A DNA stretch of 64,000 nt from Candidatus Hydrogenedentota bacterium (GTDB lineage: Bacteria > Hydrogenedentota > Hydrogenedentia > Hydrogenedentales > SLHB01): positions 1 through 64,000 of the forward strand of contig JAKPDK010000070.1 in NCBI GenBank assembly GCA_029552745.1, read 5' to 3'. The notes under the pieces are model-generated. The model was not told the DNA's origin. It did no database searches and worked only from the letters and a program-made list of their open reading frames with translations. Shown one piece after another: positions 56,502 to 61,618 of this stretch; positions within the stretch are counted from its first letter, which is position 1; each line of letters opens with the position of its first letter. The position numbers were made by a program, and so were the translations under genes.

Positions 56502-57074
56502 TCAGACGAGTTCGATTCCGACTGCTGCGAGTGCCTTCCGCAACTCATCGGGGTTGAAAGGCTTTTTCAATAAAGCGACTCCCTTATCGACAAGGTCTTT
56601 AAGGGGCTCTGCAGCGTCGGAGGATACCACGGCAATGACAGCTGTTCCAGGTCGTTCCTCGGGCTCCGTCAGTCGTCTGCAGATATCGGAGGCATTTGTT
56701 CCTTGAAAAGCCATATCAACAATGGCGACATCAGGTTCAAAGAGGGCAACCAACCGTCCCGCATCGAAACTATCGCGTGCGATTTGGAAATCACAAGCAT
56801 TACGCGTTTTTTCCAACTGTTTTTGGATATTGCTTACTAAGGTATTGTCCTGGGAGATCAACAAGATTTTGCAGCGCTCTTCTCGGAGTTCAGGCGGAAG
56901 GGGGATGTTGTGTTCGCGCATAAACTTGATGACGTTTTCGTGGCGGACCCGTCGGTGACCGCCAGGCGTCTTAAATGCATGTAACGCCCCCGATTCTGTC
57001 CATTTGCGAATGGTATCAGACGTGACATGACAAAACGCTGCAACTTCTGAAGTCGTATAAGCTGGTTTTTTCAT
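56502..57074 (-). CDS. MerR/excisionase-type HTH protein with receiver domain
   Basis: 190 aa. Residues 1-58 are a helix-turn-helix of the MerR/excisionase class (YTTSEVAAFCHVTSDTIRKW, GGHRRVRHENVIKFM). Residues about 68-188 are a CheY-like receiver: ILLISQDNT start, VAIVDMAFQG with the phospho-acceptor Asp, AVVSSD, and LLKKPFNPDEL with the conserved Lys. Order is DNA-binding first, receiver second, the reverse of typical response regulators. No histidine kinase is nearby. It sits 83 bases after tRNA-Thr on the same strand and may be read from the tRNA promoter. It lies inside a repeat-rich patch. Confidence 0.88.
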   Translation of the reverse strand: MKKPAYTTSEVAAFCHVTSDTIRKWTESGALHAFKTPGGHRRVRHENVIKFMREHNIPLPPELREERCKILLISQDNTLVSNIQKQLEKTRNACDFQIARDSFDAGRLVALFEPDVAIVDMAFQGTNASDICRRLTEPEERPGTAVIAVVSSDAAEPLKDLVDKGVALLKKPFNPDELRKALAAVGIELV

Positions 57075-57996: not shown

Positions 57997-59487
57997 TTAG
58001 CAATTCGGCAAGAAGGCGCCCATATCTTTCAGCGTTTTTTGGAGCTCTTTAATTGAAATGCTTCTTGTATCAAGGTTCGTTTTTGAGGCAAGCGCCGCTG
58101 CGACGCCTGCGGCTTGGCCTGTAATGTAACACCCAGGCATGACTCGAATGGAAGACTGCATGTAGCGGTCGGTGCTTATACACCTTCCCGCCACAAGCAC
58201 GTTGTTCAACGTTTTGGGAGTAAGAGAGCGATAAGGAATCCCATAATTCTCTCCAGTACCAAGTCGGAAAGAGGTATGTTCTCTTAGGAAGGTTTCGTAA
58301 CTTTCTTTGTCCGGACGCGCAATGTGGATGTCCACTGGATACGAATACCTTCCAATTTCGTCCTCAAAAACAGCCCGAGTCTTGAAATCTTCCAGATTCA
58401 GGACGTAGTCGCCGATAATTCTGCGGGTTTCCCTGACGCCCAAAAGCGAACCCGTTGCCACCAACTCCATTTGCTCAAATCCTTTAAGGTACTCTTTGTA
58501 GTATCGCTCATATTCCAATAACGATTTTCTGCCCCAGAGGAGTGCTTTAGTCAACGATTCTTCATCGGTGCCGTCTAAACCAAACGTGTGACCGATGTTT
58601 CCGCCTCCGAGCGTATTCCCGACACGCCACATTCCCGGAAGATGTCGGTCTTCCAACGTAAAAACCCCGTCCTGGAAGGCTCTCTCGAGTTGGCTACCAC
58701 CTGCTCCCAAGCCTGAAGCATGCACTTTGTCCCAATCAATATTTGCCCATAAACTGCAAAGAGTTCCGGGCATCATGCCGCCGTCGGCGTCTCCCTTTTC
58801 GAAAGGCGCCCCCGCAAAGGCGCAAAGGTCTCCATCACCCGTTGCATCAATGTACATTTTCGCTTTAATGGCATAGAGCCCACTTTTGCCTGAACAAACT
58901 GCCGTTTGGACGCTACCGCGGTGTGTCAAGACGTCTATCAATTTCGTATAAAAGGAGAAGACAACATCCGCTTCAGTCAACAAGTTGTCATAAACGCGTT
59001 TCAGCGTCTCCGCACGGATGCCCATCCCATCGGGTGGAACGGTACCATCCGCTTTACGCAACGTCTCGAGAACCTCTTTCCCGATTCCTCCGGCCAAGAA
59101 GTTCTTGCCGTCTGTGAATTGCATAAATGCAGGCACCATTCCCGCCGTGCCCATCCCTCCAAGACAGGAATGCGCCTCGATGAGCCTGACATGACAACCC
59201 TGTCGAGATGCCGCCAAGGCAGCAGCGACACCTGCGGGTCCGCCACCCACAACAAGTACGTCACACTCGTATTTGACAGGTATTTTCTTGGAATAAACAA
59301 CCTGTTTTTTCAAATGTGGGTTTTCGTCCTTTGTGGGGTGAGGATGTTGCCTTTGCTCATGCTTCATGGTAGTTCCTATTTCCTGATTGCTGGCCTGTCC
59401 GTAGGAGTTTGTCATTTTTGTGATAATGGTGGCACCTGAACTAACCAGAAAAGTCCGTCGAGAAAGCCCAGATTTTCTTCTACGCAT
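57997..59487 (-). CDS. Tat-exported FAD-dependent oxidoreductase
   Basis: 496 aa. Twin-arginine motif SRRTFLVSSGATI at the N-terminus, a hydrophilic His-rich spacer (35-65), then the FAD-binding GGGPAGVAAALAASRQG with the acidic end LIEA at about 76-100. LGGMGTAGMVPAF, DATGDGDLCAFAGAPFEKGD and the closing AGRCISTDRYMQSSIRVMPGCYITGQAAG are typical of the FAD_oxidored family common in PVC-type bacteria. Substrate unknown; probably a periplasmic sugar or organic acid. GAGGGGAG precedes the ATG. Divergent from the UroD-like gene. Confidence 0.88.
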   Translation of the reverse strand: MRRRKSGLSRRTFLVSSGATIITKMTNSYGQASNQEIGTTMKHEQRQHPHPTKDENPHLKKQVVYSKKIPVKYECDVLVVGGGPAGVAAALAASRQGCHVRLIEAHSCLGGMGTAGMVPAFMQFTDGKNFLAGGIGKEVLETLRKADGTVPPDGMGIRAETLKRVYDNLLTEADVVFSFYTKLIDVLTHRGSVQTAVCSGKSGLYAIKAKMYIDATGDGDLCAFAGAPFEKGDADGGMMPGTLCSLWANIDWDKVHASGLGAGGSQLERAFQDGVFTLEDRHLPGMWRVGNTLGGGNIGHTFGLDGTDEESLTKALLWGRKSLLEYERYYKEYLKGFEQMELVATGSLLGVRETRRIIGDYVLNLEDFKTRAVFEDEIGRYSYPVDIHIARPDKESYETFLREHTSFRLGTGENYGIPYRSLTPKTLNNVLVAGRCISTDRYMQSSIRVMPGCYITGQAAGVAAALASKTNLDTRSISIKELQKTLKDMGAFLPNC

Positions 59488-59631
59488 GGATGATTCTCCC
59501 CTCTAGTTTACACGTTATCTCTTGAGAAAAACACAGAAAGAAGTTGAACATACCCCAGGCTTAAGATTACCCTATCGGCTTATTTCCACTTTACTATTAT
59601 GGCACTGCCGTTTCAACGGAGGTTTTTGTTA

Positions 59632-60636
59632 ATGACACCGCGTCAACGAGTTATTCGTGCAATTGAATTGGGACATCCCGATCGTGCCCCCCGTGATCTT
59701 TGGGCGCTTGCGGGGGTTTCCATGTTTCGTCGACAAGAATTGGAGGAGGTGCTCTCGTTATTCCCTACGGACTTTGCTTCACCGCCGGGGGTGTACGGGC
59801 GTTCTACTCGTCAACGCGGAACCGCCGCCCAGGTAGGTACGTACGTCGATGAGTGGGGTTGTGAATGGACAGTGGCGGAGCCCGGCGTCTGCGGGGAAGT
59901 GAAGAACCCCATTTTGGAGGATTGGAGCCGCTTGGAAGACTGGACACCGCCCTGGGAGCTACTTGACGAAGCTGATTTCAGCAAAGTGGATGATTTTTGT
60001 AAGAACACGGATAAGTTCGTTAAAGCCGGCACGCACACGCGCCCGTTCGAGCGCATGCAGTTCTTGCGCGGCACAGAGAACCTTTTTCTTGATATAGCGA
60101 TGATGTCAAGTGAGTTCATGGAGCTTTGTCGGAGAATACATGAGTTTAATTTGCGCGAGATGGAGCTTTGGTCAAAGACAGCCGTAGATGCTGTGGGATT
60201 TATGGACGACTGGGGAACGCAGCACAATCTGTTGATCTCCCCGGTTCTGTGGCGCGAGATCTTCAAGCCCATGTACAAGGATTATTGTGACATTCTCAAG
60301 GCAAAGAGCAAATATGTATTTTTCCATTCCGACGGACATACCCAAGAAATTATCCCAGACCTGATCGAAATAGGCATTGATGCGCTTAATACTCAGCTTT
60401 TTTGTATGGATATAGAGGAGTTGGGTAGGAAATTTAAGGGGCGTATCACGTTTTGGGGGGAAATTGACCGTCAGAATATTTTACCGTTTGGCTCGGTTGA
60501 AGATGTCCGTGCAGCAGTCCGACGGGTACGGCGCGCACTGGACGACGGTTCGGGAGGGGTTATTGCTCAGTGCGAATGGGGAAACCGCGACCCAAAGGAA
60601 AACATCATTGCCGTTTTTGAGACGTGGTTAGAATAG
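59632..60636 (+). CDS. uroporphyrinogen decarboxylase-like (URO-D superfamily) protein
   Basis: 334 aa in the URO-D/cobalamin-methyltransferase barrel fold. Starts TPRQRVIRAIELGHPDRAPRDLW, the usual opening, with DWGTQHNLLISP, FKPMYKDYCDIL, FFHSDGHTQEIIPDLIEIGIDALN and FWGEIDRQNIL. The family includes true HemE and corrinoid methyltransferases; the residues here fit the latter-type branch found in many copies in PVC-like genomes, not housekeeping HemE. GGAGG nine bases before ATG 59632 decides the start. Confidence 0.85.
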   Translation: MTPRQRVIRAIELGHPDRAPRDLWALAGVSMFRRQELEEVLSLFPTDFASPPGVYGRSTRQRGTAAQVGTYVDEWGCEWTVAEPGVCGEVKNPILEDWSRLEDWTPPWELLDEADFSKVDDFCKNTDKFVKAGTHTRPFERMQFLRGTENLFLDIAMMSSEFMELCRRIHEFNLREMELWSKTAVDAVGFMDDWGTQHNLLISPVLWREIFKPMYKDYCDILKAKSKYVFFHSDGHTQEIIPDLIEIGIDALNTQLFCMDIEELGRKFKGRITFWGEIDRQNILPFGSVEDVRAAVRRVRRALDDGSGGVIAQCEWGNRDPKENIIAVFETWLE

Positions 60637-60865
60637 GTTACAGCCGTTTCCTTTCGCCAGCAGAACCCCTTTTGTCGTAGTGGGCGTGTGAATAATTTGA
60701 CTGATTTGAAAATGAGTCGCAAAATATGAAATGTTTTCCTGTTTCCTATTGTTCTGAATAGTGAGGTTGTTAAGGGATAAAGATAGCGAATACACTCTCG
60801 AAAGAGGCGTGGGCGACTTTTTAATTGAATAGACGTGGGGCAAAACTACTAACGAGGTGACGAAC

Positions 60866-61618
60866 GTGACATCAAAAAAACGCTGGAGCGACGTGTACAA
60901 ATCGGAAAACCCGTTCCAGCTGCCTCAGGCTTTACTTCATGCACTGAGGCAGAAGTCGAAAGAATTTAAAACAAAATCTGAGGTGAAATATCTCTGGATT
61001 TATGTTTCACATGATTCTCTCGATGATAATGGAACGCCCTCCAAAAGGCTCTCGACCGAAGAATGGCTTAATGTGATTGATGAGGCGGCTTCGCTCGGCG
61101 TTCAATACGTGGTGATCAGTGTAGGAACTTCGTTAAACGAACACCCCGAGGTCAAGGAAATTTGTCAATGGGCGCAGTCGATGTACGGCATGCACGTGGG
61201 GGTGCATTTGTACTGTGAAAAGTTGACACCCGATGAGAGCGTGTTATTGCTTGACTTGGACAAATCGAAAACGGCTGTCTTTTTGGATTGCTGTGATCCC
61301 GCCGTGGAGGCTCGTTTCAAAGAACACGGATTTGACGTCTACCCTGCCTTAGGGCAAGACCAAGAGCACGTTTCGCCGGAATGTCATCTTCCGGAGGAAA
61401 TGACCTGTGTGGGTGCTGCTGGAACGCTGTACACGTGCGGATTGGTTTTGGGCGAAACCGAGTATCGTCTCGGGCATTTTTTTGAACGTCCTTTGGATAG
61501 TGTGATGCACGATCCCTCTTTACCCCATAGCATTCCTGAAGGGCTTCCGAAGTCAAAACACCGTTGCAACGGTTGTCCGCCTTTGATGGTTCAGAAAATG
61601 CAAGAGCGAACAAAGTAG
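60866..61618 (+). CDS. radical-SAM-like protein without the 4Fe-4S cysteines, with SPASM-type C-terminus
   Basis: About 250 aa. Segments follow a radical-SAM barrel: KYLWIYVSHDSLDDNG where CxxxCxxC would be, LSTEEWLNVIDEAASLGVQYV, ISVGTSLNEHPEV where GGEP would be, CQWAQSMYGMHVGVHLYCEKL and SKTAVFLDCC. The SAM-cluster cysteines and GGE are replaced. The C-terminal part keeps Cys at about 173, 181, 191, 234 and 237 (TCVGAAGTLYTCG, HRCNGCPPLM), matching a SPASM auxiliary-cluster domain. It may be a non-catalytic partner or an Fe-S carrier. GAGGTGA precedes GTG 60866; GTG 60857 is an alternative. The 229-base gap before it shows nothing clear. Confidence 0.75.
   Translation: MTSKKRWSDVYKSENPFQLPQALLHALRQKSKEFKTKSEVKYLWIYVSHDSLDDNGTPSKRLSTEEWLNVIDEAASLGVQYVVISVGTSLNEHPEVKEICQWAQSMYGMHVGVHLYCEKLTPDESVLLLDLDKSKTAVFLDCCDPAVEARFKEHGFDVYPALGQDQEHVSPECHLPEEMTCVGAAGTLYTCGLVLGETEYRLGHFFERPLDSVMHDPSLPHSIPEGLPKSKHRCNGCPPLMVQKMQERTK

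Follow-up and report, generated by a model that had tools for sequence, protein, structure and literature searches.

The open reading frame at 60866..61618 of the window (the whole 64,000-nucleotide stretch of Hydrogenedentota DNA analysed here) encodes a 250-aa pseudo-radical-SAM/Twitch protein. It is descended from radical-SAM enzymes, has lost the site for radical SAM chemistry, and has kept the four cysteines of a single auxiliary-cluster domain. We are highly confident of this identity, which covers homology, the absent radical-SAM site, four invariant cysteines, selection, distribution, and gene neighbourhoods. What the protein does is a more tentative matter. We propose a phylum-specific, non-radical pseudo-radical-SAM protein with one Fe-S (or Zn) site that would act as a binding or redox-regulatory module, and to this mechanism as a whole we give slightly less than an even chance.

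The gene is an open, intact frame on the + strand (as are all features below unless marked otherwise), with a GTG start and the stop codon included in its coordinates. The sequence GAGGTG at 60854..60859, 6 nt upstream of the GTG at 60866, reads as a ribosome-binding sequence. An alternative in-frame GTG lies at 60857, and the start at 60866 is favoured because relatives open with an 'MTSKKRW'-like sequence at the homologous residue. Pairwise dN/dS between close family members was 0.06-0.13, which points to purifying selection on a maintained gene. The original prediction was to be abandoned if the frame proved broken; the frame is intact, and with these selection data a pseudogene reading of 60866-61618 was dropped.

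Kinship with radical-SAM/SPASM enzymes, as first claimed from one sequence, had to be tested on the family because the single protein scores below every curated cut-off. Searched alone, the window protein matched Pfam SPASM across the entire 67-position model (E=0.011), Radical_SAM from a point after the cluster motif (E=0.13), PqqE (E=0.0025), and TIGR04085 (E=0.0064), all four below their cut-offs. The C-terminal part of 28 of the 29 family members used for profile building matched Pfam SPASM (E<=1; best 2.3e-7), and 27 of the 29 matched the TIGR04085 SPASM-domain model (E<=1; best 8e-8). The profile comparison, weak for the single protein, thus left no such doubt at the family level.

The nearest intact relatives are 380-430-aa radical-SAM/Twitch proteins of Hydrogenedentota (alignment A2). 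The family profile aligns with them over the stretch between alpha-1 and roughly alpha-4 (HMM E-values down to 5e-11), and hhalign of the family against intact radical-SAM/Twitch proteins gave 97% and E=6e-11, in support of the derivation that had been proposed. By these two comparisons and by fold matches to PqqE, CteB, and SuiB, the family belongs by descent to the radical SAM superfamily. Both groups share the alpha-1 motif 'WLxLVDEAAxLG', the order of barrel elements, and the order of the Twitch cysteines (C281-x17-C299-x40-C340-x2-C343 in the intact relatives). The intact relatives, however, are ~150 aa longer and carry CNLxCxxC, GGGEP, and TNGT, none of which is found in the window family. 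On our reading of the alignment, the family appears to have lost about one beta-alpha barrel unit, and the five barrel strands in both AlphaFold models are consistent with such a loss. No close intact paralogue was seen in the window genome, where the best SPASM protein tested gave E ~5e-5. As a separate observation, an intact radical-SAM/SPASM protein with the motif CNLRCIHC (G000:C109:20754-21923, locus L146) scores 440 bits against TIGR04347 (cut-off 525) despite the pseudo-SAM name of that model.

The segments read in the original prediction as replacements for the two catalytic motifs are as described. VSHDSLDD (residues 47-54) opens the beta1-alpha1 loop (residues 47-62; 61004..61051), where intact relatives have CNLxCxxC, and VGT (residues 86-88; 61121..61129) aligns with GGGGEP of the intact relatives, where the SAM-binding GGE(P) motif would lie. 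The family bears out the loss: CxxxCxxC, expected of an active radical SAM enzyme, occurs in 0/57 members, and no GGE column is conserved at the end of beta-2, the string GGE being found in 2/57 members elsewhere. In the alignment of 57 members the columns of the beta1-alpha1 loop vary and none of them conserves a ligand residue, hence there is no visible substitute for CxxxCxxC. Barrel strand beta-1 (residues 42-46, YLWIY; 60989..61003) and helix alpha-1 (residues 64-76; 61055..61093), both assigned by DSSP on the AlphaFold model, flank this loop. W44 of beta-1 is invariant (57/57), and W67, D72, and E73 of alpha-1, whose motif is common with intact radical-SAM proteins ('ERWLxLVDEAAALG'), are essentially invariant. 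In alpha-2, W102 is invariant and Q104 nearly so. The alpha-1 motif recurs in the intact relatives, whereas W102 and Q104 do not, which makes these two residues a candidate binding interface.

The window protein has cysteines at 173, 181, 191, 234, and 237, all of them listed in the original prediction. Four are conserved: C173 (61382..61384), C191 (61436..61438), and C234 (61565..61567) are each invariant in 56/56 members, and C237 (61574..61576) in 55/55, followed by an invariant P238. Position 181, on the other hand, is Cys in just 22/56. Cysteines in columns 30/31 and 100 were considered as extra ligands and set aside, being frequent yet not invariant. The spacing of the conserved set, C-x17-C-x42-C-x2-C, is nearly fixed, and we regard these residues as putative cluster ligands. 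Compared with PDB sequences, the family profile matched CteB (5wgg, E=0.0012) and, weakly, BtrN (E=0.065). In this weak match the four Twitch cysteines of BtrN fall on the same columns as those of the family, which is why we describe the retained segment as a Twitch domain, half of a SPASM domain (residues 173-238; 61382..61579; Pfam SPASM match over the whole model). Thus, auxiliary-cluster cysteines were indeed kept, but the pattern is the four-cysteine, one-cluster half-SPASM (C-x17-C...C-x2-C) and not the full SPASM with its seven cysteines and two auxiliary clusters.

Structure prediction gave no sign of an unrelated fold, the other outcome that would have counted against the original prediction. 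AlphaFold2 models of the window protein (pLDDT 84.8, pTM 0.79) and of a distant family member (pLDDT 87.7, pTM 0.81) agree in the order of their elements and match radical-SAM/SPASM structures. For the distant member, the top three Foldseek matches in the PDB were PqqE (1.7e-5), CteB (2.8e-5), and SuiB (4.0e-5). For the window model, AbmM, SuiB, and biotin synthase were among the best, with MTHFR at the top of the list. TIM-barrel geometry common to both folds explains the MTHFR chains, and an MTHFR-like assignment was dropped because the sequence profiles favour the radical-SAM line. With MTHFR listed and with modest TM-scores for the radical-SAM matches (0.34-0.53), the structural evidence backs the sequence evidence but cannot stand alone.

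As far as our searches reached, the family is restricted to Hydrogenedentota. A protein search found a match in 50 of 60 relatives, and the profile of 29 members found one in 58/68 Hydrogenedentota genomes, nearly always as one full-length copy, with 10/11 sampled families of the phylum represented. The same profile found full-length members in 0/318 genomes of other phyla, where it gave two matches, both weak and partial and both to the SPASM region. A contig scan with one degenerate peptide pattern, and hence of limited sensitivity, recovered full-length relatives nearly all in Candidatus Hydrogenedentota bins. The exceptions were records named Nitrospiraceae and Rhodothermaeota and two titled 'uncultured bacterium'. 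The Nitrospiraceae and Rhodothermaeota records (L052, L066) match genomes placed in the family and order of the window genome, and their names are probably wrong. One genome of GTDB family f10 has a second Twitch copy (G065:C332, locus L126) that is followed, as in family f1, by tig- and clpP-like genes; its contig is 4.3 kb long and this copy is perhaps contamination.

The mechanism we propose begins with an ancestral radical-SAM enzyme bearing a Twitch domain, whose descendants lost the GGE motif, the loop for the SAM-binding [4Fe-4S] cluster and, it appears, roughly one beta-alpha barrel unit. Because of these losses, SAM cleavage is not expected. We infer that a metal is bound, that the metal is a [4Fe-4S] cluster, that SAM is left uncleaved, and that the role is one of binding or regulation. 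The four Twitch cysteines most probably form the complete ligand set of one auxiliary [4Fe-4S] cluster, and the remaining partial barrel may bind a ligand or a protein partner, with the cluster stabilising or redox-gating that binding. The protein would then be a stand-alone regulatory or scaffold module that, in one lineage, is operonic with a sugar kinase. A plausible though less probable account is that the Twitch cluster became the sole functional centre, giving a stand-alone one-cluster Fe-S redox sensor or electron carrier that would work without SAM chemistry. In BtrN, four cysteines ligate the [4Fe-4S] cluster of the Twitch site, and the potential of this cluster lies near -765 mV (PMC9012708).

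The original prediction went further and suggested a dedicated non-radical partner, electron carrier, or regulator derived from a radical-SAM enzyme. A radical-SAM partner encoded alongside found no support: among 616 neighbour ORFs at 55 loci, a pattern test that recovers 11/11 known intact relatives found 0 radical-SAM genes, and the nearest SPASM protein of the window genome is only weakly related. A dedicated radical-SAM partner in an operon was therefore dropped, and the idea of a dedicated partner in general is weakened. There is still some case for a trans-acting partner or electron carrier, whose low-potential Twitch cluster would exchange electrons with a radical-SAM enzyme encoded elsewhere. 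Auxiliary clusters have been observed (SuiB) or proposed (BtrN and PqqE) to accept electrons (PMC9012708), and the window genome offers 39 Radical_SAM matches, 7 SPASM proteins above cut-off, and one PqqD-like protein. Against it stand the 55 loci with no radical-SAM neighbour and the near-universal presence of the gene in the phylum, whereas its closest intact relatives were detected in few genomes; we consider this explanation unlikely.

The neighbourhoods also bear on a carbohydrate-related role, in which the protein would be a non-radical enzyme or specific binder for such a substrate, working with an FGGY kinase where one is present. A XylB-like FGGY sugar kinase, scoring below the XylB cut-off, lies directly upstream in GTDB family f1 plus one f4 genome (loci L033, L034, L039, L040, L042, L043, L045, L052, L053, L059, L107, and L108), with a gap to the Twitch gene of -4 to about +19 nt. 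An orthologue of this kinase (>=65% identity) occurs in 13 genomes and the pair is adjacent in 12; the 13th, G020, has no more of the kinase than a fragment truncated by the end of a contig. In an f10 subgroup, GntR-type and enolase-superfamily genes are found upstream of the family gene. These arrangements fit a carbohydrate role, but most genomes bearing the gene lack the kinase orthologue, including the window genome, whose best paralogue is 41% identical, and operon neighbours vary from family to family. We therefore dropped the FGGY kinase as a general partner, given a pair found in 12 genomes only and a window genome without the orthologue, and the carbohydrate reading as such seems improbable to us.

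No gene partner is conserved throughout the phylum. In several lineages the Twitch gene stands alone, flanked by divergent pilQ-P-O-N-M and, on its other side, by a convergent MshEN-HDOD gene; the divergent pilM-N-O-P-Q operon was seen at loci L041, L046, L048, L119, and L121-L125, in several families. At the window locus, a URO-D/MtaA-like gene (59599-60636, +; PF01208 E=1.3e-14, far under the MtaA cut-offs) ends 229 bp upstream of 60866-61618, and tRNA-Gly, tRNA-Lys, and tRNA-Leu follow downstream, then genes read as tig and clpP. Elsewhere in the window we noted an FAD-dependent oxidoreductase with the twin-arginine-like N-terminus SRRTFL (57997-59487, - strand; PF12831 E=5.8e-104) and a MerR-type HTH fused to a response-regulator receiver domain (56502-57074, - strand; PF12728, PF00072). 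A Nif11-domain protein (PF07862) of ~80 aa, without an evident core peptide, is encoded convergently, downstream of the Twitch gene and at most a few hundred bp from it, at loci L047, L048, L054, L055, L058, L064, L105, L121, L123, and L124 (for example, L048:9049-9288 and L048:9313-10791), in a row with the MshEN-HDOD gene. It scores above cut-off in 13 genomes and lies beside the Twitch gene in 11 of these 13. This small, convergent gene is absent from the window genome, and we rejected its product as a partner.

The four cysteines might instead hold zinc, making the protein a structural or protein-binding zinc module. Invariant cysteines at a nearly fixed spacing would suit such a module as well, and CxxC pairs are common in zinc sites too. 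BtrN, however, with the same cysteine order, uses its site for [4Fe-4S] (PMC9012708), and a zinc module strikes us as a little more improbable than a carbohydrate role. Least credible by far is a decaying gene heading for loss, an idea that the missing catalytic motifs and the 10/68 Hydrogenedentota genomes with no profile match, several of them incomplete, might suggest, but that the selection data already contradict, together with the intact frame, the invariance of four cysteines and of further residues, and the breadth of families that carry the gene.

The function of auxiliary SPASM/Twitch clusters is still debated (PMC9012708). The family offers a natural protein with no SAM cluster and an invariant auxiliary site, so that the auxiliary site could be studied with no need to remove a radical-SAM cluster by mutation. 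Hydrogenedentota have seen little experimental work, and the family provides this phylum with a conserved protein of its own that can be tested.

Among known systems, BtrN, a Twitch radical-SAM dehydrogenase (PDB 4m7s/4m7t), is similar in size to the window protein, and its four-cysteine Twitch site aligns column by column (C-x17-C...C-x2-C) in the weak match given above. BtrN differs from the window family in having a radical-SAM cluster (C16, C20, C23), and the reaction it catalyses is a radical oxidation (PMC9012708). PqqE, CteB, and SuiB resemble the family in fold by Foldseek, the family having the first half of their SPASM pattern, and the alpha-1 segment of PqqE resembles that of the window protein. 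These three enzymes act on peptides and have an active radical-SAM site and a full SPASM domain that holds two auxiliary clusters. The GeoRSP SPASM protein TIGR04304 is, by its name, the SPASM-domain member of a system in which a radical-SAM protein also occurs. It gave weak matches in 9/29 members that did not approach its cut-off of 300 bits and no match to the window protein at E<=1, and the adjacent radical-SAM gene of that system was likewise missing at our 55 loci. The NCBIfam families TIGR04347 (pseudo_SAM_Halo) and TIGR04150 (pseudo_rSAM_GG), judged by name, are radical-SAM-like and regarded as non-radical; their models are 390 and 407 positions long, compared with 250 aa for the window protein, and neither matched it. 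In the literature library that was searched, no paper on the family of the window protein or on 'pseudo-rSAM' was found. With no match to TIGR04347, TIGR04150, or TIGR04304 and no such paper, we treat the family as separate. Cluster-less pseudo-radical-SAM families are already named in NCBIfam, and what is new here is a pseudo-radical-SAM/Twitch family of the Hydrogenedentota.
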